Assembly (NCBI RefSeq): GCF_000003605.2
Contig: NW_003105607.1
Location: 239,748-280,081 of the forward strand
Direction: 5' to 3'
Length of the DNA: 40,334 bases
Source of the DNA: Saccoglossus kowalevskii
Taxonomy: Eukaryota > Hemichordata > Enteropneusta > Harrimaniidae
Of this stretch, positions 3,713-40,334 are shown piece by piece. The stretch's first letter is position 1. Every line of letters begins with the position of its first letter. Both the position numbers and the translations under genes were made by a program. Below the pieces are notes generated by a model that had not been told where the DNA came from, searched no databases, and saw only the letters and a list, made by a program, of their open reading frames with translations.

Positions 3713-3781
<69 letters not shown>
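3713..3781. repeat. (TA)n microsatellite
   Basis: About 34 uninterrupted TA dinucleotides. The length is likely to vary between individuals and may be imprecise in the assembly. Confidence 0.95.
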
Positions 3782-10940: not shown

Positions 10941-11045
10941 CTGAACCGTACATACTGTGTCAATGTCCTGTATATGAGATACGTATGTAGAAAGTCTGAA
11001 CACCGTCTCCGTCTATAAGGGACAATACCTTACTGTGAACGTGCA

Positions 11046-12200
11046 ATGAATCTCACGTTCATTCTCAGCACTAATGTCGTCAGCGTGGATCCCAATTCGC
11101 TGGTAACACCAGATCGCGACTATGGCCGCCTCGGCACAATCGTAGTGTCAACGATACTTGTAGCCATTATGGCTGTCACTTTGTTTATGAATTCGCTGAT
11201 AATCCTCGCGTTTTGTACATCCAGACACGTCCGTAAGATAAACAACTACTTCTTTTTCAGCCTGGCACTCACCGATATACTTATGGCTGTGCTGGTCATG
11301 CCATGGATGGCCACGGAACAGTTATTGGGTACGTGGATGTTCGGTAAAGAGCTGTGCTTAGTTTGGTTATGTGCTGACTATTTTCTTTCATCGGCATCTG
11401 TGTTCAATATGACATTCATTTGTATCGACAGATATCTGAATATCGTTCACCCTTTGTCTTATCCAGCTAGCAGGACACCGAAACGGATTATTGCCATGAT
11501 TGTAGCGGCGTGGGTTCTAGGATTGCTCGCCGAGTTACCAGCCACGCTTTTATGGGAACCGATCGGACAAAAGAGTGTGATCAACTACACGCATACATGT
11601 GACGTTGAATGGGTTGCCAATGTTTACTACACCGTTCTCAGTACGGTCCTGACTGTTTTCGTGCCGTTTATCGTCATGACGGTGCTGTACTCCCGATTGT
11701 ATTGCGCCATAAGACGGAGTTTACGCTGGATTAGAAAACACTCTTTCGCCGGGTTCGAAAGCAGCGAATCGATAAATCAGTACACACAGGTTAATCACCA
11801 CAATGGCGATGGCATACCGCTCGAATGTGCCGACTCATTGCACAGCCACCACAGCACTAGCGGGTGGTCACTAGCGAGGTTATTACTACAGAATCCCGAC
11901 AGTCACACAAAACGAAGGGGTAACAAGAAACATCGTGTTTTAAAAGATAAAAAAACTGCCAAAACTCTTGGGATTTTATTAGGATTTTTTGCGTTCTCGT
12001 GGCTTCCCTGGCAAGTAGTGAGTATCACAGACGCGGCGTGTGGGTATTACTGTGTCCCTACACTTTTGTATGACATTTGCCTCTGGTTACAATATTCCAA
12101 CTCTATGATTAACCCATTCCTGTATATATTTAGAGACGACAGCTTTCGCATTGCTGTTTATGGAATTTTGACAAAATGTTCTTTCACCAGTGGCAGGTAG
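11046..12200 (+). CDS. Class A aminergic-like GPCR (histamine H3/muscarinic-like), receptor 1
   Basis: A 384-residue seven-helix receptor, predicted to sit in the plasma membrane and signal through G proteins. Visible landmarks: N49 (1.50), SLALTD with D77 (2.50), C104 (3.25) paired with C185 in ECL2, D111 (3.32, the amine-binding aspartate), DRY at 128-130, W156 (4.50), P207 (5.50), W319 and P321 of FSWLPW (6.48, 6.50), W347 and Y350 (7.40, 7.43), and NPFLY at 356-360. TM3 and TM5-ICL3 resemble muscarinic receptors; the AAC..YCVP ECL3 and TM7 resemble histamine H3/H4. It lacks the H3/H4 glutamate at 5.46 (T203 here) and has W322 at 6.51, where tyrosine or phenylalanine is usual. N-glycosylation sequons lie at N2 and N180. 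ICL3 is basic, about 85 residues. Single exon; the first in-frame ATG is used and is conserved in the paralogue. The ligand is unknown. Confidence 0.93.
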   Translation: MNLTFILSTNVVSVDPNSLVTPDRDYGRLGTIVVSTILVAIMAVTLFMNSLIILAFCTSRHVRKINNYFFFSLALTDILMAVLVMPWMATEQLLGTWMFGKELCLVWLCADYFLSSASVFNMTFICIDRYLNIVHPLSYPASRTPKRIIAMIVAAWVLGLLAELPATLLWEPIGQKSVINYTHTCDVEWVANVYYTVLSTVLTVFVPFIVMTVLYSRLYCAIRRSLRWIRKHSFAGFESSESINQYTQVNHHNGDGIPLECADSLHSHHSTSGWSLARLLLQNPDSHTKRRGNKKHRVLKDKKTAKTLGILLGFFAFSWLPWQVVSITDAACGYYCVPTLLYDICLWLQYSNSMINPFLYIFRDDSFRIAVYGILTKCSFTSGR

Positions 12201-12210
12201 CACCCGTTAT

Positions 12211-12434
12211 GAACGAGTTAAACTGGTGAGTCCCTTTTGCACCTCCACCCCTAACCCTAACTGTAATCCAACCCCTACCCCCCAGCGCTCTCCAATTCAA
12301 TTGTAAATGCTCCTCCTAAGGACACCTATAGATATCTAGAGGGGGACATGTACAATTTAATTAGAGGGCTGGAGTGAAGGTTAGAGTTAGGGTTAGAAGT
12401 AGGGTGCAAAAGGAATCCTTTTCGGAACGAGTTA
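12211..12434. mobile_element. MITE with 10-bp target duplication, just 3' of receptor 1
   Basis: The direct repeat gaacgagtta at 12211-12220 and 12425-12434 brackets a 204-bp element (12221-12424). Its inverted arms include ccttttgcacc at 12233-12243 with ggtgcaaaagg at 12403-12413, and ctaaccctaact at 12251-12262 with agttagggttag at 12385-12396, both perfect pairs. The paralogous block has a single gaaggagttg at the matching place and no insert, so this is an insertion after duplication. A target duplication of about 10 bp fits Mutator-like elements best. It starts 10 to 20 bases after the stop codon and so probably lies in the 3' UTR. Confidence 0.85.
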
Positions 12435-14211
12435 GTGTATCGGTTTGGAATACGTGCACTATACATTATTTCATATGTACTGGAGAACAAACTGTCATTT
12501 GCCGTGGAATAACATTGGTATTGTCTACAACTGACATGCAAATGAGATAAAATAGTAACTTATAAAGTTGGGTTTTCTTTCTATTTGTTGCATAGCGTGA
12601 ACTGCCGGGGTACCATAGAGAGAGCACTCAAGAACGCGAACAAAGTAATAAAAAAATACTATTGTCGAGAAAAATAGACGCGCAGTCAAGCATAAAAAAC
12701 AAGACAAAAACGTGATGAATTGAGGGTATTTTAAAATGGCTGCTTCCAAGTAAAGTTTAGCACGAGTGTCGGGTGAGTAACTATTTCTAATGTTTATGTT
12801 TTACAAATCGGAGTATGCAAGTAAATATCATTACTAAAGTACACTGCACTGTGTCTATGTCTCCAAATAGTAATATCAAAAACGGTTGGGATTCTAGTTT
12901 CGATGTTCAGAATCTTGATTCACTGCACGGCTTTTGTACTATGTACATTGTGAGTTACATATATTTGTGTGTTGTAATATGTTATATTAGTACATTTAAT
13001 CGAAATTGTCTATTTTGTTTGTGTGTTTTTTTTAATTACTGTACTTTACTTTTTATAAATATAACAATGTACAATACAATGTAAAAAATGAATCGATTAA
13101 ATATGAATAATATTACATATAAATATGTGTGAACAAAAAGCAAACTTGAACTATTCGTTCCTGTCATGACCTTGTTCTTTATCTATTGCAGCTATGAATA
13201 TACATGTATTAAATACATAAATACAGTTACTGAAGTTGTAGATGTACCAGCTTACGTGATATTTCGGAATATCATGATCACGATTGTTTTATTTTGGCAA
13301 GGAAATAAACCGTAAAATAAATGTCTGGTTCCACTCCATATATGACGTTAAGTCTACTGATGATACAGTGTTCTGCACTTCATTAATATGCATAATAGTA
13401 ACTAGTAATTCATGTTCGGATTATGAGTTATGGTGGCGAACAGCATGGCAGAAACAATTGGAAATTCTGATTTAGATGAGCTCTCTAAAGGAGTACGCCA
13501 ATATGACAAAATAAATGAAAGCCGGACCAGTGTTTTAATTTGTGTGGTTATTTTTATCCCACACCGTGCCTTAAAACTGCAGTCAGGTTATTCCATTCCT
13601 GTCTATCCTTAGCCGCCATTTCTGCACTACTCCAGGTTAGGTTCGCTTGGGCAAGTTCTGTGGTAAAGATTCATCAAAACAATAAATTTATAGCTGAATA
13701 CTGTTTAATAGTTATTATTGAACACACCGTGTTCTGTATCAAATATAACTATAAATATAATTACATATTTGAGGAACTAGAGAATATTATATGCAAATTT
13801 GGTGACATTGATATAATTCACTACATATTTGTGTAGGTATGTATCTTATTCACTTTTTCCGATAAACAATTTATTTGATTAAAACTATATACAGATTTAT
13901 TATTATTATTGTTGTATAGAGACTGAAAATACAAAATGAAATGTATTGATTTATTAATTTTTGTACAATACTCCGAATAGCTTTTGTTTGAGAAATACAT
14001 GTACTAATTAAAATGAAACAAATTGTTACTTCAATATTGTGCTACATACGTCATTTTTATCAATACCAATGTAAAGTTTCAGTTTACTTACTGTCATTTA
14101 CAACTTGAGCCTAAATGTGATGAATATATTCAAATTTCAATCCATTTTTTTGCCATACGTGTTGTATGGAAATGTATCGCCATGCAAACTTTGGTGTTGT
14201 CTCAATCTTAC
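12435..14211. other. Non-coding stretch
   Basis: After the receptor 3' flank no gene or repeat is recognised. The sequence is AT-rich with short random open frames. The 3' end of the receptor 1 transcript probably falls early in this stretch, but no poly(A) site could be assigned with confidence. Confidence 0.4.
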
Positions 14212-14400
14212 CTGAGAACTACATATTTCATTTTCATGTTTATGTCCAGCGTGCTTCTCTTGATGAGCTTTCATCGTAGCACACGACTAGGGCTGAAATC
14301 CACACAGTCTACATTCAGGCAACGCCTTTTATTTGTTTGTGAGTTTCACATTATGTTCCGCAATTTTTGTTTCTGAAACTTCCTCATTGCACATGTAGCA
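14212..14400 (-). pseudogene. Decayed C2H2 zinc-finger exon, with splice donor
   Basis: On the minus strand, codons from 14313 down to 14251 read C-x2-C-x12-H-x3-H (CRLCGFQP...MKAHQEKH), the exact C2H2 spacing for zinc coordination. An in-frame TAG at 14287-14289 interrupts the finger. Upstream, 14400 down to about 14341 shows a second finger trace (C-x2-C-x11-H, last histidine replaced by leucine), followed by an in-frame TAA at 14329-14331. After the intact finger the frame runs 13 more codons to a consensus donor, CAG|GTAAGA, at 14212/14211. The two stops suggest a pseudogene, or base errors next to the nearby assembly gap. The parent family is not identified; transcription-factor DNA binding is the usual role. 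Confidence 0.45.
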
Positions 14401-14579
14401 ATGGAGTATATATACATGCGTGTTGCTATGGGTATGCCGTCCCAAACACGTTTTCGTCTTGTACAACTGAATCTGATACAACTTTCAAATTTACAATTGA
14501 AAGTACTTCTTTCTGAATTTACCTCCGTGTTCCCATAGTGTATGTAGTGATGACAGATGTTATGTCCTGTAGTAGACTT

Positions 14580-14629
14580 NNNNNNNNNNNNNNNNNNNNN
14601 NNNNNNNNNNNNNNNNNNNNNNNNNNNNN
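14580..14629. other. Assembly gap (50 N)
   Basis: Exactly 50 unknown bases, a common fixed-size scaffold join. True distance and content here are unknown, and any gene structure crossing it (such as the zinc-finger remnant) cannot be judged. Confidence 0.98.
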
Positions 14630-14862
14630 GAAAATTTCGAAATATAATAAATATTACATGTTACACCAGAAAATGGAAAATCATACATACCATGAATCTG
14701 AACATCGAAACTAGAATCGCAAAAGTTGTTTTATTACTGCTCTGTGTCTTAAAGAATTTTCTACAAAATACATGTTAGAAATAATACGGGGTATTTTGTT
14801 ATTGGTATATACTTGCATATTTTGATTTGTAAAATATAAAGGTAGAAGAAATAGCTACTTAC

Positions 14863-14979
14863 CTTGGAAGCATCCATTAACCAATCATTGGACAGAATCA
14901 CTGCGCTCTCATACAAATGCAGTAAGGTTAAATCTTTAATATTATTTGAGATATGATCATAGCGCGCCGTAATGGGCCT
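14863..14979 (-). other. Candidate minus-strand exon ending in a strong splice donor
   Basis: A 39-codon open stretch on the minus strand ends at AAG|GTAAGT (14863/14862), a near-perfect donor, and begins after an in-frame TAA at 14980-14982. The peptide has a run reading HLYESAVILSNDWLMDASK that is not low complexity but is not recognised. It lies 230 bp upstream, in minus-strand terms, of the gap that separates it from the zinc-finger remnant, so the two could be exons of one gene. No acceptor was settled. Confidence 0.25.
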
Positions 14980-15179
14980 TTAACATTGCGATCATCTGGT
15001 ATTTGGAGTTCAAAAGAGAAGCTTGGGGACAATATCCCAAGTTCCTTCCAAACAATGAGCACACTTGGACATTTGATGATTGCAAACTTATGCAAAACCG
15101 TCAAGTAAGAAGTTACGCTGAAATTGTTGTTTGTAATTTGAGTATCTGCACCATTGTCAAGCTTGTAACCAATTGCAAG

Positions 15180-15925
15180 GCAAATAGGACGTAATTGACC
15201 AACCTGATTTCTCGTAACCGGTCTCAGTACGTGGTTTTCGGCGCCCTGGCATAACACAGAATATCACGGTATTATTCTTGCTATTTGAGCACCGTTAGCT
15301 TTAGATCTATGATTTCATTGTTTTTTCTTCATTTTCATGTCTAAGATGCAAGTACCTACAATCTTTGCAGTATTGACTGTATGGGTAGCGCCCTCTCTGG
15401 TAACTTCGTTACTAACGTTAGGACCTCCATTAAGGTACATGGTCATAGATAAATTGCCGTCGTATGAATAAGTATACTTTCAGAAATAATGAAGCGTTGC
15501 ACTGTGGGATATAGCAACGGAAATTAATATTATGACCGCTTCGCTATGATTGCTTCATATTATGCTTCAAACGTTTCATATAATGCCGAGAACACTCAAT
15601 AATGCCGTGATCGCTTCAAGATGTAGTGACGGCTTTATCTAATCATATGTTTTATTAGACTATGTAGATCTCGCATTATGTAATAAGAAGATCGCGTAAA
15701 GTGATCACATGAAATGATGAGGTGGTTAACTTATATGATAGATAGATGGCATTTTACAATGAGATTTGTTATTATATTAATGTGTAGCGCCGTAGAAGGT
15801 AGTACCAGTCTTGGTATATTATACACTTTACTCTGATCTGATTACCTCATAATCATCGACGTTGCATTATATTATTTTTGGTAATTATTTTACGATCTCA
15901 TGTACATCCATTTAGGTAATTGATT
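15180..15925. repeat. Diverged local duplication, copy A
   Basis: Segments match 17265-17625 in the same order. Examples: accaacctgatttctcgt versus accaatctgatcactcgt; ggcataacacagaatatcac versus gacgtaacacggaatattac; ctacaatctttgcag versus ctacaatctttgtag; gtagcgccctctctggtaac versus atagcgccctcattggtaac; and catccatttaggtaattga versus gtccatttaggtaattga. About 350 bases at roughly 15478-15830 have no counterpart in copy B and look like an insertion or replacement. Minus-strand reading gives weakly conserved peptide (for example TVIF in both copies), so an old coding origin is possible. Confidence 0.55.
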
Positions 15926-16402
15926 ATTTTTACATACAACCACAGACAGCGAATTTGCGTATGACGTATAAAGAATAGATAAACGTATTAAATTGGATAT
16001 GTGCAAAACGTATTTTGTTATCGAGTGTTCAACATAGAACTTGTTGGATGTTAACATAATAACTGCATTCAATGCGGCAAACTATAAACAATTCTTCAAT
16101 GTATATACGAGTCAAAACTTTATGATGATACAGTCTGTTATACTTACAAACGTGTAAACAGTACCCGGGCACTGCAGCTTACACCGTGACGGAAATGCTG
16201 ACACTAATGTTATCATTACTTACATAAAGAAATATGACGAAATCACATACTCCTCTGTATAAACAACATACTGTCTTTCTCGTAACATTATTTGATTGCA
16301 TGTACTGCGATTCACTCGTGGCTTCATTAGTTTAGTAACTGTACTGAGATTATAATTATATTTTTAATTCCGTTTTAATAAAAAGCAGCCTGTCGACTGA
16401 GA

Positions 16403-17183
16403 TAGCTCCGCTGTTAGCAATGCACATTTGAATTAAAGAACAGAAGATATCATTAGAAAATGAACAATATGTATAGTACATTGTATCAAAGCAACGTATC
16501 TTGCTGTTTTCAACAAGAATTCAAAAATATCACTTTTCACCAAAAATGACAAAAATAATCATCAAAATTAAGTAATTGAAGATATCACCACAAAATTAAC
16601 AAGGTCCACATGTAATACCTATATGTGTAATATAAAAGCAATCAGACTTGCGGTTTTTAACAAGAAGTCGAAAATATCACTTTTTACCAAAAATGACAAA
16701 AATATTCACCAAAATTAGAGAATTAAATATATCATTACAAAATGAACAAATCTGAGGAGGTCCACTTGGATTACCTATGTATGTAATATCAAAGCAGTTG
16801 GACTTGCGGTTTTTAACAAGAAGTCGAAAATATCACTTTTTACCCAAAATGACAAAAATATTCACCAAAATTAGAGAATTAAAGATATCATTACAAAATG
16901 AACAAATCTGAGGAGGTCCACGTGTGGTACATGTGTATGTAATATCAAAGCAATTGGACTTGCGTTTTTTAACAAGAAGTCGAAAATATCACTTTTTACC
17001 AAAAATGAACAAATCTAAAATAGGTCTACATAAGGTACATATACACCAATTATCAAAGCATTCAGGCTTGTTGTAGTTTTCAAGAAAAAGTCGAAAAAGT
17101 AAAACGGACACGGACGACGACGGACGACGACGGACAATCACTCATATGATAAGCTCCGCTCGACAAAGTCGACAGCGGAGCTA
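16403..17183. mobile_element. TIR element carrying internal ~150-bp tandem repeats
   Basis: Perfect 12-bp terminal inverted repeats, tagctccgctgt at 16403-16414 and acagcggagcta at 17172-17183. Inside is a direct repeat of about 147 to 156 bp whose units are marked by aacaagaa.tcgaaaatatcac near 16512, 16659, 16815 and 16971; the last unit is internally shortened. The right end has a run of cggacgacga repeats and a small hairpin (agctccgctcgac / gtcgacagcggagct). No transposase is encoded. It splits the duplication between copy A (15180-15925) and copy B (17265-17625). The superfamily is not determined. Confidence 0.7.
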
Positions 17184-17264
17184 AAAAACGTTTTGGTCGG
17201 CTAACTACCAAGTACGAATTTATGTGGGAATTGCTTTTTTCAAGTTGCAATTTCAGTATAATGA

Positions 17265-17625
17265 TGCGCACCTACACCAATCTGATCACTCGTTGCCTGT
17301 TCCAGTGTGTGGGTTGATGGGCCCTGACGTAACACGGAATATTACCGTGCTGTTCATTGCTAATAGCTTTATATCTTCTATGATTTCATGTATTCCTTCG
17401 TTTATATTTCTAGGAAGAAACCATCTACAATCTTTGTAGCATTTACTTCATGAATAGCGCCCTCATTGGTAACTGTAATACGTTCAACTATGAAGATCAT
17501 AGCGTGTAGTTAACCACTCCGATCTCATTTTCTCTTAATCACCGGCGTTGTGTGATTTGTCAGTGGATACATTTCCTCAATTTCACGGTCTAATTGTATG
17601 TCCATTTAGGTAATTGAATTAAAGG
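17265..17625. repeat. Diverged local duplication, copy B
   Basis: This is the partner of 15180-15925. It starts just after the TIR element at 16403-17183. On the minus strand a roughly 50-codon open stretch (about 17440 down to 17285) reads through a peptide containing CRWFLPRNINEGIHEIIED, and the matching frame in copy A is broken. The protein family is not recognised. Confidence 0.5.
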
Positions 17626-17937
17626 CCAATTAAGTACATTAAGGTTTTATTTTTAGAATACGTTCAACAGCATATGTTGTAAAATAATTAAAAAAACGTA
17701 TCAAATGCAAAGATATTTTGCTGACTATATCGCGTCTCAAAGGGCACCCCGAAGTCATATCATATGTGAACTCATGAGCTAAAATGATTTATTTTTAACC
17801 GTGACTGAAGCTGACATACAATTATGTTAACGCCATAGTATTTTTTTGTAAATATGCAAATAAATATCATAAGAAGCCATGACTGTGTCTTTTTGTGGCA
17901 AACTACAAATAATTGTTCGATGCATATACATAATATT

Positions 17938-18127
17938 GTCATCCAAGTGTTTCAAAAATGAGGCACCGTGAAGTTAGGAAGTCTTGAGGTTGACTCAGTG
18001 AAAGATTGAGAGTGATATTTAGCGCGCCTTGTAGTGATTTTAGCGGCCCCGGTAGTGATTGTATCGCCCGCGGTAGAGATTTAGCGCCCCCCGTAAATGT
18101 GCCCCATTTTTGAAATACTTGGACGAC
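17938..18127. mobile_element. MITE with GC-rich internal short repeats
   Basis: Left end gtcatccaagtgtttcaaa (from 17938) and right end tttgaaatacttggacgac (to 18127) are near-perfect inverted repeats extending about 28 bp inward to gaggcac / gtgcccc. ATAT occurs at both outer edges, a possible short target duplication. Between the arms, about 18018-18095, four diverged units of about 22 bp share the form tagcgccccnggtagtgat, much more GC-rich than the surroundings. No protein is encoded. Confidence 0.7.
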
Positions 18128-18587
18128 CATATATACTACTGGGTCAAAACATTCTAAACATAAAAGCTATCGACGTTTAAATAGCACCTAATCAGCTGAA
18201 GTATACGCGTGATATCCTATTAAAGTAGGCCGCACTACCTGACACATCACCTCGAGTTTACACGTGTGATACGATGTAACAAGGATTACATGGGTTAAAT
18301 AGTCGACATATTTGCCGCTAATTGCAGATCAAAATCAAAACAGGGTTTACAAATGGATCGATACAGTGTACATAACCGGAGCAAAAAAAGGTGAAAGGTT
18401 AACAAGGTCAAAGTTTATCACTCACTCGGATGCTCGCTGCAGTAGCTACCAAACTATGTTATGGGTTGCGAACTTTCGGGACTAGTAACATGATATAAAA
18501 TATACGTCACGTGCATGTCAGGTGAATACTGATGGTCCTGTTTGTAGAATTGTCAACACCAATAGCCAACTATATCGTGCGACATTA

Positions 18588-18747
18588 AAGCAAGGGAGTC
18601 GTCCCCTGCGCGTGCGTCAGATGGCCATAGCGTGTCATTGTTTACAAACAAACGTCTACCCGGAAGCCTTGCGTTTTTAGCGTGTGTTTTTATTGTCTTG
18701 CTTGGGACTCAATACCCGCGCGTGAGCAGGTGACGAGCCTCCCGCTT
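18588..18747 (+). mobile_element. TA-flanked MITE family, copy 1
   Basis: A 160-bp element bounded by TA on both sides (18586-18587, 18748-18749), with inverted ends aagcaagggagtcgtc and the reverse complement of gacgagcctcccgctt. It shares an internal core (agatggccatagcgtgtcat, tgtttacaaacaaacgtcta) with the copies at 28850-29014 and 19305-19419. TA flanks and short TIRs fit a Tc1/mariner-type non-autonomous element. Confidence 0.8.
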
Positions 18748-19261
18748 TAGCAGCTTGTCTGCCAAACAACAGCTCAGAAGCAATTTATGTTAGAACGTTT
18801 TCCCGCCAATTTATATCTATCAGAGTATGTTTATATATAGTGTCATGCGATGAATATATATCATATATATATATTGAAATGTCGCGAGACTCTCGAAGAA
18901 TGCACAAAATACTGAATATAAAGTTTGGTTGGGACCGTGGCATAAATCGAGCTTGTTACAAATTGTTTTATACTTTATCCAGGAAAGGGGAGGAAATATA
19001 AAACTAAATCCCCATAGTATTCCATTAAAATGAGTGACAATTTGATTTTGACGGAATGGCGATATTCGTTATAGTGCAACGACCGCAACATGGAATTTAT
19101 GTTTATCATCACCCTATTCTGTCAGATGAGATGAATTGTCAGGTGATTGAAAATGTCGAGGTCGACTTCAATCTGCTAAATGGGGGCAACTGCATTAAAT
19201 ATTGAAAACAATTTAAACCTCGTCAACTCGAGTACTGTGGTTTAATCTGTAATCATGTTTC

Positions 19262-19292
19262 ACCATAGACCTTGTTTTCTAAGGTCTATGGT
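19262..19292. repeat. Perfect 12-bp inverted repeat with 7-nt loop
   Basis: The arms accatagacctt (19262-19273) and aaggtctatggt (19281-19292) are exact reverse complements around gttttct. It lies 12 bases before the TA-flanked MITE copy at 19305. Confidence 0.8.
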
Positions 19293-19304
19293 TTCACACA
19301 ATTA

Positions 19305-19419
19305 AAGCGAGTGCTCATCACCTGCGCACAACACACGCTAAAACGCAAAGGCTCATGGGAAGACGTTTGTTTGTAAACAATGACACACTAAGGCCATCTG
19401 ACGCATGCGCAGATGACTT
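19305..19419 (-). mobile_element. TA-flanked MITE family, copy 3 (inverted, shortened)
   Basis: A 115-bp copy in the opposite orientation to copies 1 and 2, with TA on both sides (19303-19304, 19420-19421). It keeps the core gtttgtaaacaatgacac and the ggccatctgacgc arm but lacks about 45 bases near the other end. It faces copy 1 across 557 bases, forming a large inverted pair. Confidence 0.75.
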
Positions 19420-20671
19420 TATACAAAACAACATGGCCGGCCAAACATTACTGCTAGTATTTACTTTTGACCAGGGATGGTGCCCTCGGAAAAATGATGA
19501 GAATGTGTCGTCAGCGTATTCTTACAGGCTACGTGATACTAATAACAGTCTTGGTTGAAAACGTTCTCAAGTGTGGGGCTGGATCTTGGTAGAGAATACG
19601 ATAAATTAACAACTACAAATACACACAGCACTGAATAAAAACCATAGTAACAAAACGAGATAAATGGAAAAAAAAGATGCTAAATGATTGTGTTGTTACT
19701 TTACTTCTTAGCAGGTATGCTAGACATTCAAGTTCATCAACCGCTAGGAGATGGTTTTACAAAAAATTATATCTTTCTCGCCCTTCACATAGAACACAAT
19801 TGCGAAGGAAATGTTTTCCGATCTCAATTTCCTGTTAGTCACAAACTGGACAGATTCAATCATCATCATTAAAGTTATTATAATTACCCCTTTCAATTTG
19901 AAGGACAAAGTCATTTTCGTCATAGCAACTCATTGGTTGGAATTTTTCAATTGTAGTCAGATATTTGTCATATGCGAAATCTGTTTTATTTTTATCATAT
20001 AATATTTCTGTACTTCAAAGTATTTCAAATGTTTGTTCTGGTTCACGTGTTACTGTTTCGCGGTTTTTGTCGCTCTTATATTTGTATTTTTTCCATACTT
20101 TTTCCATATTCAAATATACAGTAGTTTCTCCCTTTTTGTGTAGATGTATTCCTAGCTAGAATACCTCATAGACTAGTGAAAAATGAGATTTATTATTTAT
20201 CTAATATTTTGTCATATATATATTTGCTTGTTGCTGGGTTACTTAATAATGAATGCTGAAATTGTAGACCCCGTTTCAAAATATTTTGCTCAAAAAGAGA
20301 TTCCATTCTAGATGATTCCATTCCCAAATATTTTGCGACATATCCGCATTATTATAATACCTATCAGATGGAACTATCTCAACTGGGGTACTTAACATGA
20401 CTGACATAATTTGGATAATTCGAACAACGGAACTGAAAAAAGCTCCATGTTTAAACTGGTCCTCAATTTCGCCAGTTAATTTCAATTTGACAAATCGTCT
20501 GCTGTAGTCACTATGAATGCTTCGTGCTCGGATGTTAGCATAATTAAATATTAAATAATATTTCTGTAAATCTCGTTTATCTGAAATTACATAACTAATT
20601 ATGCAATGTGATTAATTCTTCGTGATGGCATTTGATTCAGACAGGGAGCTCCCTGATTTGGTACAGAACAG

Positions 20672-20720
20672 TCGATCATACCATAGAGGTAGTAGGTCCT
20701 ACTACCTTCCATGATCATAC
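20672..20720. repeat. Imperfect inverted repeat around aggtcct
   Basis: The left side cgatcataccatagaggtag and the right side ctaccttccatgatcat pair around agtaggtcctact, giving a stem of about 20 bp with a small bulge. Nothing indicates a terminator or RNA gene. Confidence 0.5.
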
Positions 20721-22515
20721 GTTGTCCAAAATGTAAAGTGGCGCTATAATGTAACGTTATCATGTGACGCCAACAACTGCTGCACGCATACCCCCCCCTC
20801 CCCCTCATATCGAGACGTAAATAGCAAACCAGTCTTCAACTTAGCTGACAATGTTACAGTTTTGTGTTCGGAACAATGTGGCAGTGAGAATAAAACAATG
20901 GGCGTTTAGAGATCGGGGATAGTGGGACTTTGGAGCAAACAAATATTTAATAACCAAAAACTAGAACTGTGACGGACCCCTGTAACTATTGTGGCGTTGA
21001 AATAATTTAGCAAAGACTTCGTTCAGGCAATACACCTCCCTGGCATACACAACAAATCACCCCCCCCCCCCCAAACACAGTAAGTAACACAGTTGGTGAT
21101 TGAAATGTCGTCGTCGTCTTCGTACATTGTCCCACAGATATTCATGTCAGTTGCGACACTTTAGCTGACAACTTGATTGAAATGTTAGACTAGCGTAAAC
21201 GAACCGAGGGGATCCCCGGTGCTTTCAGACCACAAGCTATACCAATACAAGAACCTGTACGTAGCTCGATTCCCCCTCCCCCGCCCACGTTTTTTCACCG
21301 CATACACACACGCCCCTATAGCCATTACAGTGTAACGTTTAGAGCATTGTAGTGTCGTTCACACGATATTCGTCGTATCCTTGTATTTGTTAGATCATGG
21401 ACGCACCACGGACGTACTAATCCATGGTTAGATCTCATACCACTAATAAAGTGCCCGGTGGTCTGAGGTAAGATCTAGTCGTATAAGCTCCGAATATAGA
21501 TCGATACAGCGATTCCTTTTTCTGAATCGATCATAGCTATATTGAGATAAAAGTTGTGTCTTAGATTAGTACTTAAAACAAGCGTATATTTTGTTACCAG
21601 AAACTTCAATCGGTAAACCAATACTAAACTAACCACAACTGTGAATGTCTTTGAGTCGAGCTTTGAGTTGGTATGCTGGCGTAATACGAATAGCAAACAT
21701 TATATCTTGCAACAAACATTATAGTTTGCGTTTGTGTGCACTAGACTAACAGACTACAGACTAACTGCATAATGACCCAATCACTAATCGTAACTCTGTA
21801 ATGCGCGCATCACACAACATCACTCCACAGTGCCTCAATAACACGGTATAACTCCATAGCCCCACAACACAGAATAACTCCACAGTAAGGATTACGGAAT
21901 ATACTTGTACAGGAATTGACATACAGCGCCATACCATACTATTATGTTTTTGACATCTCCAGAGAATCATCAGTGATCCGTCCACCAGTACGAGTATATT
22001 TGCATATTGCTCATTTTATCAAAGAATTGTCTTAGAATTCAATGCCCCCCCCCCTCCAACTTGAAAAAACGAAGTCGGTCCCGGTCCATCTACCAAAACT
22101 TCAATTACAATGAGTAAATGTACAAACTCTCTGTCCCATCTCGTTCCACAATATTCGGACGCTGTGAATGTAACTCACTTCCGGCGACGTTAATTATTTC
22201 TATCCCAATTCCCCTGAGGCCGGAAGTTTGAGATAATTTCATCAAGTTTCCTGGAAACGTCTTTTATAACTTCTGATTCTGCGGATCTCTGTTTTAACAT
22301 TATCCAGTCCACTGAATTCAGTAAGGTGCGTATTTGACCTGTTTTGTTTGAAAAAAAAATGGGTTCAATGTTTTTCGCTTTATTTCCAGATATACAAATC
22401 TTAAGAATAAATCGATCATAATACCCCCAACATGCTCCATCCGCAGTTTGATGGGCGTATCATTGAAACACACATAACGACAGATTTATATGTAAATTAT
22501 GTACACCACTCTACG

Positions 22516-22523
22516 TGACGTCA
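22516..22523. promoter_or_regulatory. CRE palindrome upstream of receptor 2
   Basis: A perfect tgacgtca, 293 bases before the receptor 2 ATG, in the context cgtgacgtcacaa. This is the full CREB/ATF site. Receptor 1 has no such site at the matching place because homology starts only about 100 bases before the ATG, so the two copies may be regulated differently. Two other copies of the octamer in the window (7744 and 29430) are not near genes, so chance occurrence is possible. Confidence 0.35.
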
Positions 22524-22715
22524 CAATGGAAACACCAGACTGAACGAGATCACCGACGGGAACACATTAATAAAAAGACGGAGGCGCAATCGACGATCGT
22601 TGTTACCCGTTCTATCGGAAGTCTTAAAATACCGTGATGAACTTTGCCCGTAAAGGCTTGGCTAGAGGGCTAGACATGCGTCTGTCATTCAGCCTTTATA
22701 TTGCCTGTTTACTGA

Positions 22716-24045
22716 ATGGAACCGTACATGCTGTATCGACGCCCTTTCTGTGGGATGAATACGTAGCAAGTCTGAACACTGTCTCCGTCTAAGGGAGAAT
22801 ACCTAGTGAGCGTACGATGAATCTCACGTACATACTCACCAAGAATGTCGTCAGCGTGGACCCCAATTCGCTGGTAACGCCAGATCGCAACTACGGTCCA
22901 CTCGGCACAGTCGTGGTGTCAGCGATACTTGTAGCCATTATAGCCGTGACTTTGTTTATGAATTCGCTGATAATCCTCGCGTTTTGTACATCCAGACACG
23001 TCCGTAAGATAAACAACTACTTCTTTTTCAGCCTGGCACTCACCGATATATTGATGGCTGTGCTTGTTATGCCATGGATGGCCACGGAACAGTTATTGGG
23101 TACGTGGATGTTCGGTAAAGAGCTGTGCTTAGTTTGGTTATGTGCTGACTATTTTCTTTCATCGGCATCTGTGTTCAATATGACATTCATTTGTATCGAC
23201 AGATATCTGAATATCGTTCACCCTTTGTCTTATCCAGCTAGCAGGACACCGAAACGGATTATTGCCATGATTGTAGCGGCGTGGGTTCTAGGATTGCTCG
23301 CCGAGTTACCAGCCACGCTTTTATGGGAACCGATCGGACAAAAGAGCGTGATCAACTACACGCATACATGTGACGTTGAATGGGTTGACAATGTTTACTA
23401 CAACGTTCTCAGCACGACCTTGACGATTTTCGTGCCGTTTATCGTCATGACGGTGTTGTACTCCCGCATGTATTGTGCCGTGGAACGGAGTTTACGCTGG
23501 ATTAGGAAACATTCTGTCGCCGGGTTCGAAAGCAGCGAATCGATAAATCAGTCCAGTCAGATTAATCACCACATTGACGATGGTATGCCGTCTGTGTACA
23601 ATGACTCGACGAGTAGCCATCAAAATACTCGCAAATGGTCACTGGCGAGGGTATCGCTACAGAAACCCGACAGTCACACAAAACGAAGGGGTAACAAGAA
23701 ACATCGTGTTTTAAAAGATAAAAAAACTGCCACAACTCTTGGGATTTTATTAGGATTTTTTGCGTTCTCGTGGCTTCCCTGGCAAGTAGTGAGTATCACA
23801 GACGCGGCGTGTGGGTATTACTGTGTCCCTACACTTTTGTATGACATTTGCCTCTGGTTACAATATTCAAACTCTATGGTTAACCCATTCCTGTATATAT
23901 TTAGAGACGACAGCTTTCGCATTGCTGTTTATGGAATTTTAACAAAGTGTTCATTCACCAGTGGCAGGTAGCACCCGTTATGAAGGAGTTGAGAGCATGT
24001 CAGATGTCTGCAGTGGAGTACGTGCAATATATTATAATATATGGT
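22716..24045 (+). repeat. Duplicated block, copy 2 (contains receptor 2)
   Basis: Partner of 10941-12478. The upstream match covers about 100 bases, including agtctgaacactgtctccg. Downstream the shared cacccgttatgaa follows the stop codon, then gaaggagttg, which is the uninterrupted equivalent of the MITE target in copy 1. Homology is lost after about 24045. Confidence 0.8.
22817..23971 (+). CDS. Class A aminergic-like GPCR (histamine H3/muscarinic-like), receptor 2
   Basis: A 384-residue paralogue of receptor 1, differing at about 37 residues by hand count with no length change. All class A landmarks are kept at the same numbers: D77, C104/C185, D111, DRY 128-130, P207, W319, W322, Y350 and NPFLY 356-360. 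The changes are grouped. Eight fall in residues 5-42, eight from ECL2 to early ICL3 (A191D, T196N, V201T, V204I, L218M, I222V, R223E, F234V) and nineteen in ICL3 residues 246-283. Only K306T and I355V lie in the rest. So the helical core and G-protein interface motifs are fixed, while TM5 and ICL3, which commonly tune ligand access and G-protein choice, have diverged. Single exon, intact frame, so probably functional. Confidence 0.93.
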   Translation: MNLTYILTKNVVSVDPNSLVTPDRNYGPLGTVVVSAILVAIIAVTLFMNSLIILAFCTSRHVRKINNYFFFSLALTDILMAVLVMPWMATEQLLGTWMFGKELCLVWLCADYFLSSASVFNMTFICIDRYLNIVHPLSYPASRTPKRIIAMIVAAWVLGLLAELPATLLWEPIGQKSVINYTHTCDVEWVDNVYYNVLSTTLTIFVPFIVMTVLYSRMYCAVERSLRWIRKHSVAGFESSESINQSSQINHHIDDGMPSVYNDSTSSHQNTRKWSLARVSLQKPDSHTKRRGNKKHRVLKDKKTATTLGILLGFFAFSWLPWQVVSITDAACGYYCVPTLLYDICLWLQYSNSMVNPFLYIFRDDSFRIAVYGILTKCSFTSGR

Positions 24046-27423: not shown

Positions 27424-28849
27424 AACAGGTTAACAGTTTTTTTAATTATAGCGTAATAAGTAATTCAATATCACGTTTTAAGGAACTCGTTAAATATAAA
27501 TATTAAATATTAGCTGACTCTTCTACCCACCTCATTTAAAGTGAGGGTTCTAATCTAGTTCATTTTGCTCATTGCCCCGGTTGCCATTTACCTACCCTAG
27601 GCTGTTCATATTAGTCACGTGATATTTTGATCTAAGAATACATTGGTGTTTGTTTATTATACACTTGATTGTAGCATTGCTTTATGTCGCCATACGTTTC
27701 TCATGGCAAGCAAATGCTTTTTTTAGAATCGTTAGACCAAGCTTATTATTATACTTTATCACGAAATCCTATAACGTGATATGATGAAACGTTCAAATTA
27801 CCATGAAAGACAAAACCCCGCCTCGCGTGATTAATGACAGTAATTTGACATCGTTTAATAATATCGTCACGGTTATTTCACATTATTTGACAACCCATAC
27901 TTTAGATATACTTACATGAGTTACGTGAAAATATGGACATTCCTATATTCCGAAGGAAGAAAAATAAATTACATCACTTTATATTGCACAAATGATAAAC
28001 GCACCGCGTAGGGTATATATGTATACTGACATTCCGCTGGTGTGTAGAGTTATCAATATGGGATGGTTACCGAGAGTTCATGTGTGCTTATTAACATGGA
28101 GGTTAGTGTGAACAGCGCACTTTGAACTCGTCCCAATTCTCAAGGATGATGTCTAGAACCGTCGCCGTTTCGAGTTTCTTCAATGTATTATGCGATCTGA
28201 AAGTGCAAAATATTTCCGATAAAGCACGTTCAGAAAAATGCGTCTGGAAATTTCATAACAGAGACGATCTGGTGTATGTAATGTCCGTTGTCACATTATA
28301 CAGTGTTGCTGAGTGTGCAAGCAGCGAGAAAACGGAACAAAAACGCAGGGGTTCCGTAAGCTATATCCACAGTGGAATTGTCACTGTAAGATAACGGCAG
28401 AGCCATCACGTGATGGCCAAGAGTCGATGAACCAGGTCAGGAGTCGCTCACATTCTGTCACGTCGTCGCTAGTTTTTATGTTATATTTAGTCACTTGTGC
28501 TGTCATCATAGTTTGTATTCAGTAAAACTCGATGTACAGTGTGCATGGTTTCCTTTTTAATCAGAATACTCCCATTATGTATGAATAATATCAGTTGTAG
28601 AAAATATAATAGCAACATAATTGGCGACGTGTTTGCGTCGTAGTGATTAGGTCGGACTGCTATTTTGCTGCGTGAGTCTACAGGGATGATTTCATGTTTT
28701 GCCTTTTTCCCCATAGAGTAAAACGTATAATCTCAAAATTTAATGTTTTCCGTATTGTTTGCAAATATGTCATGTCATCTCAGTATGGTGTTACGAACTA
28801 TTGTGAATCCATGGCGAAATCTTAATGCCATGTTCAAAATGTATATTTA
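27424..28849. other. Non-coding stretch
   Basis: No gene is recognised. A 90-codon frame at 28122-28394 and an overlapping 70-codon frame have no recognisable domain. Confidence 0.4.
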
Positions 28850-29014
28850 AATCGGGGGAGTCGTCACCTACGCATACGTCAGGTGGCCATAGCGTGTCAT
28901 TGTTTACAAACAAGCGTCTACCCATGAACCTTTGCGTTCTTAGCGTGTGTTGTTATCATCATGGGGACTCAATTCCGGCGCGTGCGCAGGTGACGACCCC
29001 CCCCCCCCCCGCTT
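28850..29014 (+). mobile_element. TA-flanked MITE family, copy 2
   Basis: A 165-bp copy in the same orientation as copy 1, with TA at 28848-28849 and 29015-29016. The right end contains a 14-base C run (28997-29010), against only three Cs at the matching place in copy 1. It retains the core ggtggccatagcgtgtcatt and tgcgcaggtgacgac near the right end. Confidence 0.8.
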
Positions 29015-32753: not shown

Positions 32754-34947
32754 GTGTTTTATTGTCTTAAATACTATATCAATGTTTGTCTTGATATGCA
32801 GCCATATTTAGTCAAGATTAAAACAGAGAGTATGTCAAATAATATTACACAAGATGAGTGGTTTGATTATTTTAGCAAGTTATTTAATCCAGAAATTACA
32901 ACAGATGAAAGCATGGCAGACTTCCATTCATTGGTCCACGAATATGTTAATGAATTGAATTTTGATGACTTAGATGATATTAACTTGGACTGTAGTGATT
33001 TAAACTGTCATATATCTATGGCAGAAATAAGAAAACATTTAACAAAATTGAAAAATAATAAAACGCCTGGTCAGGATGGAATACCGGCAGAATTTTGGAA
33101 ACACGCCCCACAGGATATATATGATTCGTTACATATTTTATTCAATAATGTTTTGAACAGGGGCTTATTTCCCATGGAATGGGCTTTAGGATTAATAACT
33201 CCAGTTTATAAGAAAGGATCTAAAGGTGAACCGGGAAATTATCGTAGTATTATGCTATTAAATACTATTAGTAAATTGTACATAAGTATTTTGGCAGATA
33301 GACTTTCGGCATGGATTGATAATTATTGTAAAATAGTTGAAGTACAGAGTGGCTTTCGGAAGGGAAGGAGTACCATGGATAATGTATTTATTCTGTCTAC
33401 ACTTATTGAAAAATATGTATTTCATTTAAAAAGCCGTTTATACTGTGCAGTTATAGACTACGAAAAAGCTTTTGACCGTGTTCATCATTATTCCCTGTTC
33501 TATAAATTAGCCAAGGCTGGTATAACAGGAAGACTATTATCCCTATTTTCAATGTATACACATGTTCAAGCTGCTGTCAAAACACCAATTGGGGTCACAG
33601 AATTTTTCAAAATAAACGTAGGTTTGCAACAAGGGTCAGACATATCACCACTATTATTCTGTTTTTATGTTAACGATATTGAAAATGCACTTTCACAAGG
33701 GGTTGAGACTGTTGTATATTCCAATACTTTGAAACCTATGTATTTACTTTATGCAGACGATCTCGCGCTTTTTAGCAGTTCTCCTATTGGTTTACAGCGT
33801 TTGTTAGATAGATTGGCTGATTATTGTTACAGTAGCAGACGGAGATTGAATGTAAATCTGAATAAATCTAAAATTATTGTATTTCGGAAGGGAGGGAGAT
33901 TAAAACAAGTTGAGAAATGGTTTTGGAAAGGAGGAGAAATAGAAGTTGTCTCAAGATACAAATTATCTCGGTGTAATTTTCTGTAGTTCGGGTATATGGT
34001 ACCAAGCACAACAACATATATTTGCAGATCAGGCAAGGAAAGCTTTATATTCTCTACAAAGTATGCTTTATAAATTTGGGGGACTACAACCAAGTATTGC
34101 ATTTAAAGTTTTTGATTGTAAAATTCTCCCAGTTCTCTTGTATGGCAGCGCAATTTGGGGAGTCCATAAATGTAATGATATTGAAAAAAATCACCATTAA
34201 TTTTGTAAATTTATTCTGGGGGTAAACTTGAAAGCCACAAATTGTGCTGTCAGGGGGGAGCTAGGTAGACACCAAATACATACATTTATTAACATTGAAA
34301 TAATTCGTTTTTGGTTGAAATGTATAAAAGTAGATCCCCAGAAACTGTTAGTGATTGTTATCAATACCAGTATACTCGGGCAAACCAGGGATTAAATTGC
34401 TGGGCACTGTACGTCAAAAACTTGTTAAATAAATATGGTTTTGGTGAAGTATGGGTAAAACAACAGGTGGCTAAGTATGACCTCTTTCTATATGAATTTA
34501 AACAACGAAGTTTTGATATTTCTGTGCAAGAATGGTTTACTAGCGTTGCAGGGTATCCCAAAATGCGTACATACTGTAAATTTAAATATAATATGACCTG
34601 TGACAAGTATTTAGAATGTATTTCAAATGTTACTTGTAGAAGGGCACTGTCTTGTTTTAGAATTTCTACACATGACCTAAATATTGAGACTGGGAGAGGG
34701 ACGGGCGTTCCACTGGAACTGAGGTTTTGTCCATTTTGTTGTAATCAAATTGAAAATGAATATCACATGCTTCTAATTTGCCTACAATATGCCAATTTTA
34801 GGTTAAATATATTTTACACTTTTATTTTTCTCCACCAACAGAATGGAAATTTATTTCTTTAATTAATTAAGTATTTCAAATACATTAGTAAATCTAGGCA
34901 AGTTTATTTTCTTTTCATTACAGAAACGCCGAAAACTTATGGAATGA
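32754..34947 (+). pseudogene. LINE ORF2 reverse transcriptase, broken
   Basis: The first 400 or so codons are open and carry reverse transcriptase motifs: the KTPGQDGIPAEFWK region, NYRSI, SGFRKGRSTMDN, motif A with D235 in IDYEKAFDRV, GLQQGSDISPLLF, and motif C YADD at residues 333-336. The catalytic residues are therefore present. The frame then breaks four times: one extra base near 33961-33963, an in-frame TAA at 34198-34200, a frame change near 34330, and another break after about 34840. Readable C-terminal sequence resumes to a TGA at 34945-34947. A CxxC...H...C motif near 34728-34793 matches the zinc motif at the end of such proteins. Reading continues across the breaks at good similarity, so decay is recent, but the copy cannot make a full enzyme. 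Confidence 0.85.
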
Positions 34948-35031: not shown

Positions 35032-35094
35032 GCCAAGATTAGGATTGCTAACAACTTGAGATAAATTACACAGATATTCGAACTGGTAAGACAC

Positions 35095-35345
35095 AGTAAT
35101 GATATATGCCATTGATCTAACCAGTCAACCACCTAAAGATATAGTCATGGTATATACCATTGATCCAACCAGTCAACAACCTAAAGATATAGTCAAGGTA
35201 TATGCCATTGATCCAACCGGTTAATCACACGAAGATAGAGTCATGATACAACCAATGATCCGTCAGCCAACCACCTAAAGATACAATCCTGGTATATGCC
35301 AATGATCCAACCTGTTAATCACCTAAAGATACAGTCTTGATGGTC
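35095..35345. repeat. ~48-bp minisatellite, about five units
   Basis: Units share ggtatatgccattgatccaa then ccagtcaaccacctaaagatat. The first three are close to each other; the later ones carry small changes and deletions. It begins about 65 bases after the LINE tail. Confidence 0.8.
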
Positions 35346-39437: not shown

Positions 39438-39539
39438 ATATTCAGCAAAAACATCATCTTTAAAATTTAGTCAGTTTCAGGATATTTTATATTCAGCAAA
39501 AACATCATCTTTAAAATTTAGTCAGTTTCAGGATATTTT
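39438..39539. repeat. Perfect 51-bp tandem duplication
   Basis: Two identical 51-base units, 39438-39488 and 39489-39539, each starting atattcagcaaaaacatc and ending caggatatttt. The following atatt begins a third unit and then diverges. Identity suggests a very recent event. Confidence 0.95.
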
Positions 39540-40334
39540 ATATTGTTTCAAATTAAATAGCATATGTCCTGAAATGTTATTCGGGACATGGTTTGAACAA
39601 ATGACATACTTTTTCGATGTTGAGAAGTTAACGTGACATGTTTCTAATGATAGAATGTGTTTTGATTGCGGTCTAACTTAATACACTGTCATTTTATACA
39701 TGATTTTCACATTGAAAACAAAAGTCTACGAAATGTTGACTAATACAATGTATTTAATGGGTAACATCATATTGTTCCACTATTATATGCGCTAAAATTG
39801 GATATGCGCATAAGTAAAAAAACTACGAGTTTTATGAGGCGGTGGAATTTTTTTATTGGCTCAGGGACAGGACATTATGATTTTTATTGGCTAGGGACAC
39901 ATTCATACAAACATACGCACATGATATGTATGAAGCGAGAACCCTGTCGACAAACAACAAACAAAATGGTGCATACCTAGTTAAAGAAGAAGCAATCATC
40001 TGATTCGACAAATGTAAATTATCCGCCCCTGGACGATAAAATGGTCCACCCGTACTAAATTGCCGGATGCGGGCATACTCACGGTGGTTGTTAATTCCCA
40101 TAACAAATTATGCTGCGAATAAATAATTAATTTAAACGAGGAACGATCAATATATCAATTAATTTTTCGTCAGCGTAATTATGGTAATCAATACATCCCC
40201 AAAATAACTTGAAATTTCTCAGTTAACAAGCAGACTGCAGTCTCGGGAAGACACAGAACTATTTTGTATTCTTATGGCATTTTCCATTTAAAATAAAGGT
40301 TAAAAATGGAAAGAGTAAGAGAGATATGGAAGTA
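39540..40334. other. Non-coding end of window
   Basis: No gene is recognised. At 40021-40032 there is a tatccgcccctgg-like sequence resembling the right end of the element at 7826-7968, but no matching left end is visible. Confidence 0.4.

Follow-up and report, generated by a model that had tools for sequence, protein, structure and literature searches.

Why does the identity between two tandem receptor genes in the window (the whole 40,334-nucleotide stretch of Saccoglossus kowalevskii DNA analysed here, from contig NW_003105607.1) change so abruptly along their length? An earlier note, made from the sequence alone, had proposed that sequence was exchanged between the copies. The mosaic of identity, sharp steps in silent divergence (dS) and a control with a third paralog back this proposal, and recent patchy interlocus gene conversion between the two genes (genes 1 and 2) is, with considerable confidence, the best explanation of the locus.

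The mosaic of identity between genes 1 and 2

The two genes and the blocks into which they fall are listed below, with gene 1 coordinates and the partner stretch of gene 2. The placement of blocks in transmembrane segments (TM) and in extracellular and intracellular loops (ECL, ICL) is putative, taken from motif positions and receptor numbering.

11046..12200, + strand: receptor gene 1, an intact single-exon open reading frame (ORF) of 384 amino acids, class A (rhodopsin family), aminergic type
22817..23971, + strand: receptor gene 2, an intact single-exon ORF of 384 amino acids, a direct tandem copy at an offset of 11771
10943..11045, + strand: 5' flanking homology, 20 of 98 aligned bases differing between genes 1 and 2; partner 22719-22816
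11046..11177, + strand: divergent block, N-terminus and start of TM1, 18 of 132 bases differing; partner 22817-22948
11178..11279, + strand: near-identical tract 1a, 102 bases, no differences; partner 22949-23050
11280..11297, + strand: island of 4 differences in 18 bases, in codons 79, 83 and 84, all silent
11298..11575, + strand: near-identical tract 1b, about the end of TM2 to ECL2, 278 bases, no differences; partner 23069-23346
11617..11894, + strand: divergent block, end of ECL2, TM5 and most of ICL3, 56 of 278 bases differing; partner 23388-23665
11895..12097, + strand: near-identical tract 2, end of ICL3, TM6 and start of TM7, 1 of 203 bases differing (at 11962); partner 23666-23868
12098..12219, + strand: 3' end of the gene, 5 of 103 bases differing up to 12200, with 19 bases beyond the stop

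Aligned at the fixed offset of 11771, the two coding regions were identical at 1070 of 1155 bases and differed at 85, with no insertions or deletions. The difference counts of the earlier note, which had also been made without gaps, were recovered exactly in all six stretches, including the absence of any change, silent sites among them, from 11298 to 11575 (0 of 278). The four differences within the 398 bases of 11178-11575 lie at 11280, 11282, 11294 and 11297; the island that they form is either an unconverted remnant or a junction between two events. The following 319 bases (11576-11894) carry 57 differences, one of them at 11576, and tract 1b may reach 11616, with 11576 as a single change within it. 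Thus, near-identity that extends to silent sites and ends at sharp edges, a mark by which gene conversion is recognised, occurs here between otherwise diverged paralogs.

Homology between the copies runs from about 10943 to about 19 bases beyond the stop codons (12219 in gene 1, 23990 in gene 2), and in the stretches compared beyond these limits neither ungapped comparison nor blastn found homology between the flanks of genes 1 and 2. A retro-copy origin of the duplicate found no support: there is no poly-A run where homology stops past the stop codon. Some 110 bases beyond that point an A-rich stretch occurs, downstream of gene 2 only; old ends may have decayed.

Silent divergence along the genes

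Estimated by the Nei–Gojobori method (NG86), dS between genes 1 and 2 was 0.339 over codons 1-44, 0.035 over codons 45-176, 0.419 over codons 177-283, 0 over codons 284-350 and 0.210 over codons 351-384. A uniform dS along the genes, the outcome that the earlier note had set against exchange, did not appear. Among degenerate codons that encode the same amino acid in both copies, 3 of 183 differed in the near-identical blocks (codons 45-176 and 284-350) versus 25 of 143 in the others (codons 1-44, 177-283 and 351-384; Fisher P = 2.8e-7). As these blocks were picked post hoc from the same data, we put the weight on run tests that are free of blocks. The longest run of silent identity between genes 1 and 2 had P = 0.0065 and the two longest jointly P = 1.2e-4; when shuffling was confined to degeneracy classes, the values were 0.005 and 1e-4, respectively.

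Relative codon entropy was 0.917 in the pooled near-identical blocks versus 0.863 in the rest, indicating no stronger codon bias where the genes are alike. Block by block it was 0.72, 0.91, 0.73, 0.68 and 0.75, values that are sensitive to small codon numbers. Nothing pointed to GC-biased conversion: G+C content at third codon positions was 0.52-0.53 and 0.40 in the two tracts, and neither the divergent block (0.59-0.61) nor gene 3 over the same tracts (0.53 and 0.45) was lower.

A third paralog as a yardstick

We searched the animal's own assembly (G000; 572 Mb, 4830 contigs) for relatives of the pair. The DNA search hit three places only: genes 1 and 2, without spare haplotigs of either, and a gene 3 on another contig (G000:C4070:488432-489601; 389 codons; DNA match over 488432-489600 with 84% identity), which differs from the pair by an 18-base insertion and a 3-base deletion, both in ICL3. 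The protein search gave at least 45 matches with E no higher than 1e-20; among the 107 of 570 candidates that were scored, the next relatives after the three copies were genes on contig C4226, with 41-42% identity over TM1-5 and 54-55% over TM6-7. In the viral_contigs set, none of the 6 pattern-matched stretches encoded a relative.

Over the near-identical blocks dS was 0.023 between genes 1 and 2, and 0.487 between either of them and gene 3 (0.33 in the first block and 0.97-0.99 in the second); over the other blocks it was 0.358 between genes 1 and 2, 0.601 between 1 and 3, and 0.610 between 2 and 3. In the near 5' flank the aligned bases differing were 20 of 98, 39 of 100 and 34 of 95 for the pairs 1-2, 1-3 and 2-3, respectively, so that between genes 1 and 2 this non-coding sequence, too, has diverged at the higher level. 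As the near-identical blocks differ from gene 3 at a dS of about 0.49, most silent sites there do mutate. Had the near-identical blocks followed the ratio seen in the other blocks, genes 1 and 2 should have shown about 28 silent differences there; 3 were present (Poisson P = 2.6e-9, blocks post hoc). Moreover, among silent codons polymorphic in the three-way comparison, the pattern in which genes 1 and 2 agree against gene 3 was found at 37 of 40 in these blocks versus 24 of 47 elsewhere (Fisher P = 1.9e-5).

Tests without preset blocks gave a similar result and rejected a single uniform history for the polymorphic sites. Over 205 polymorphic sites, the two longest runs of agreement between genes 1 and 2 span 25 sites each (11963-12087 and 11305-11540; longest, P = 1e-4), and over the 91 silent sites among the three genes the two longest runs had P = 4e-4 and the three longest P = 2.5e-4. 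The control pair 2-3 showed no excess run (P = 0.70 for all sites, 0.82 for silent sites), nor did the pair 1-3 show an excess silent run (P = 0.87). With free breakpoints, a five-segment model of the silent sites had P = 0.003, with breaks before 11322, 11576, 11879 and 12170; for all sites, none of 300 shuffles matched the observed value with either 3 or 5 segments.

These comparisons bear on the possibility that purifying selection or a low local mutation rate, through codon bias or overlapping signals, holds the silent sites of the two genes alike. The tracts do match conserved TM segments, and no block has a lower codon entropy than the second tract on its own (0.678, few codons). In addition, gene 3 is unusually similar over codons 137-192 (11454-11621), where local constraint is possible: genes 2 and 3 share all but 3 of the 50 silent codons there (scan P = 0.004). 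However, over the whole tracts dS to gene 3 is far from zero, pooled codon use is no more biased than elsewhere and the steps are sharp. Judged from the three sequences, silent-site constraint is rejected for most of the near-identical blocks, and as a general account of the tracts we regard it as very improbable. The earlier note had argued that protein-level constraint alone would not freeze silent sites; gene 3 shows that most of them vary, codons 137-192 excepted. Variation of the same silent sites against an outgroup copy, a further mark of gene conversion, was found for most of the blocks, with that segment as the exception.

Codons 137-192 also contain an 83-base run (11541-11623) identical between genes 2 and 3. 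All runs of identity of at least 40 bases between gene 3 and gene 1 or 2 lie within 11467-11623, with only 7 bases inside the divergent blocks. Local constraint may account for the likeness of codons 137-192, or else gene 3 may have taken part in an older exchange.

Edges and age of the tracts

Segmentation of the raw differences under the Bayesian information criterion (best with 5 segments) placed steps at 11178, 11617, 11813 and 11886, while free-breakpoint segmentation of the three-way polymorphic sites placed one before 11576. The edge at 11576 that had been proposed from the sequence alone therefore agrees with the second analysis but not with the first. All three genes share the 40 bases between 11576 and 11617, so that the first tract ends, on its 3' side, somewhere within 11576-11617.

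At 11576 gene 1 alone differs and gene 3 matches gene 2, which fits either a mutation after the exchange or the tract edge. At 11962, the single difference within tract 2, gene 2 alone differs and gene 3 matches gene 1; this change looks like a mutation later than the exchange. The ratio of dS in the two kinds of blocks (0.023 versus 0.358) suggests that the exchange may have about 6% of the age of the copies' separation.

Weighing conversion against its rivals

Several observations weigh against conversion, in addition to the codon entropy of the second tract and the similarity of gene 3 over codons 137-192 described above. Over the 91 silent sites the single longest run is weaker (P = 0.012), as is the three-segment silent-site model (P = 0.026). 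The pair 1-3 has, over all sites, a 6-site run at 11822-11829 (P = 0.007), indicating that clusters of changes private to gene 2 exist. A single assembly and a single outgroup paralog underlie every comparison. Finally, a short-read assembler could mishandle stretches of identity as short as these (278 and 135 bases), and 50 Ns at 14580-14629 mark a gap in the window.

The last points concern the main surviving alternative to conversion, an assembly error. The assembler could have fused reads from both copies or placed one repeat node twice, and the tracts would then be a consensus and not real sequence. The tracts fall in the most similar parts of both genes, and the scaffold contains the gap just mentioned, as such an error would have it. 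Assembly collapse, however, normally requires tracts that are already identical across the read or k-mer length. Sequence specific to each copy lies on both sides of the tracts, no more than a few hundred bases away, and the lone difference at 11962 inside tract 2, at which gene 3 sides with gene 1, has the appearance of a later mutation. As the flanks are dissimilar, the pair is not a false haplotype duplication. The DNA search, with part of the contig masked as N, gave just three close copies and no spare haplotigs of genes 1 or 2. We consider an assembly error unlikely.

The mosaic could also be read in reverse, with genes 1 and 2 as young duplicates whose divergent blocks were imported from remoter paralogs. 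The core of ICL3 (11799-11888) has features that would suit this: genes 1 and 2 are 0.356 apart there versus 0.256 and 0.322 from gene 3, and the 6-site run shared by genes 1 and 3 lies in it. Many of the changes in this core are private to gene 2. Divergence, however, is raised in the N-terminus, on the TM5 side, at the 3' end and in the non-coding 5' flank alike; because it is raised in several blocks and in this flank, and because the flanks beyond about 100 bases cannot be aligned, the pair is not young. Moreover, no donor was found among the three close DNA copies, the next protein relatives, among the 107 of 570 candidates scored, are the genes on contig C4226, and the long identity runs with gene 3 lie outside the divergent blocks save for the 7 bases. 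An import of the divergent blocks is hardly credible.

One other tandem pair of related receptors, out of 20 loci, was compared as a control (L011/L012, G000:C4226:312118-329816); L013, L014 and L017 were translated, the ORF picked automatically for L013 not being that of the receptor. It was 67% and 74% identical in two aligned pieces and had no near-identical tract. In both this pair and genes 1 and 2, the WLP motif of TM6 is followed by a Trp.

Proposed course of events and the divergent blocks

Under the preferred reading, recent patchy conversion, a single-exon gene for an aminergic-type receptor would have been duplicated in tandem, and the copies would have diverged to a dS of about 0.35-0.4. 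Interlocus conversion would then have overwritten at least two stretches of one copy with the other, from about 11178 to 11575-11616 and at about 11895-12097, and perhaps a further one at 12109-12169. The divergent blocks would have escaped as mismatch-rich DNA, a poor substrate, with or without selection for distinct loops. It is the non-reciprocal nature of the repair, its recency and the escape by mismatch that we infer here from the pattern described above.

The earlier note had suggested that the N-terminus and the ECL2/TM5/ICL3 region were spared by exchange or kept distinct by selection. Both blocks are indeed distinct. Selection may have kept them so, but the ratio of non-silent to silent divergence (dN/dS) between genes 1 and 2 was 0.37 over codons 177-283 (0.155/0.422) and 0.38 over codons 246-283, and over codons 253-273 silent divergence was saturated, so that no ratio could be computed. 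Positive selection in the divergent block thus found no support, with dN/dS below 1 wherever it was computable. Gene conversion requires well-matched DNA, and the 18-20% mismatch of this block would by itself protect it, giving the same picture as selection. A bolder view, which we hold only tentatively and think more probably wrong than right, treats the three copies as one set. Conversion would even out the helices from which the ligand pocket is mostly built (TM2-4 and TM6-7), and selection would keep the end of ECL2, TM5 and ICL3 private to each copy, so that the receptors would bind a common ligand yet couple differently. Copy 3, on its separate contig, may have taken part in exchange as well, over TM4/ECL2 (codons 137-192).

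Receptor type

Both genes match the Pfam family PF00001 (7tm_1), gene 1 with E = 1.6e-63 and gene 2 with E = 2.1e-62. When gene 1 was searched against the sequences of solved structures, the top match was the histamine H3 receptor (E = 5.4e-47), with 5-hydroxytryptamine and muscarinic receptors close behind. Class A aminergic receptors are marked by an Asp in TM3 (3.32), DRY, WxP in TM6 and an NPxxY-type motif in TM7; here, Asp 111 aligns to the TM3 Asp of H3, IDRY starts at 127, FSWLPW at 317 and NPFLY at 356. The H3 receptor contacts its ligand through a Glu in TM5 (5.46) and a Tyr in TM6 (6.51). In alignments to two H3 chains, a Thr faces the TM5 Glu and a Trp the TM6 Tyr, and the identity as H3 receptors was rejected. 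Because of these two replacements, the pair is best labelled, from its residues, as putative orphans of aminergic type and not as H3 receptors.

Known systems and significance

The conversion mechanism is well known and has precedents in class A receptors, namely CCR2/CCR5 and the L/M opsins. Like genes 1 and 2, CCR2 and CCR5 of mammals are closely linked class A paralogs that exchange sequence by conversion, and homogenisation of structural regions together with divergence of binding regions has been proposed for such receptor pairs (PMC2880985, PMC2720389). Unlike them, genes 1 and 2 are orphans of aminergic type that diverge at the end of ECL2, TM5 and ICL3 and at the N-terminus; in some CCR5 genes ECL2 itself was converted. 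The CCR2/CCR5 data described there come from many species, ours from one genome.

Opsin genes have several exons. Gene conversion between the L and M opsins of gibbons, tandem class A receptor genes under conversion and purifying selection, resembles the present case (PMC3213168). In contrast to the single-exon genes 1 and 2, known from the sequence of one assembly, the gibbon opsins are represented there by population data. Outside the receptors, a study of GOT1p1/GOT1p2 in the copepod Tigriopus californicus describes regions of high divergence that persist beside regions of low divergence under apparent ongoing conversion (PMC3728101). Such islands of divergence amid conversion are like those of genes 1 and 2, which are receptors seen in one assembly, whereas GOT1 is an enzyme studied there across populations.

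The case presented here is a clean, quantified one of gene conversion between receptor duplicates. Trees and duplication dates drawn from the full coding region of such pairs will mislead, with a whole-gene dS of 0.167 versus about 0.36 in the unconverted blocks. If selection guards the divergent block, TM5/ICL3 would be where the work of the two receptors differs.

Other features of the window and genome

A 61-base upstream patch is common to genes 2 and 3 (22485-22545 and G000:C4070:488184-488244, 75% alike) and was not found upstream of gene 1. In gene 2 it contains TGACGTCA; the version of gene 3 is one base different. An inverted-repeat element with arms of 88 bases, 641 apart, lies at 18585-18743, 19328-19417 and 28847-29003, and also at G000:C4070:485245-485753; with copies near genes 2 and 3, it is perhaps a non-autonomous transposon. 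Scans of the window for tRNA genes and Rfam families gave no matches. At 32754-34862, a reverse transcriptase ORF (PF00078, E = 3.1e-31) and, after it, another ORF that matched no Pfam family look like the remains of a LINE-type (long interspersed nuclear element) retrotransposon. Tandem repeats occur at 16484-17013 (unit 156), 35088-35341 (unit 48, or 94), 39438-39544 (unit 51) and 3713-3781 (unit 2, TA).

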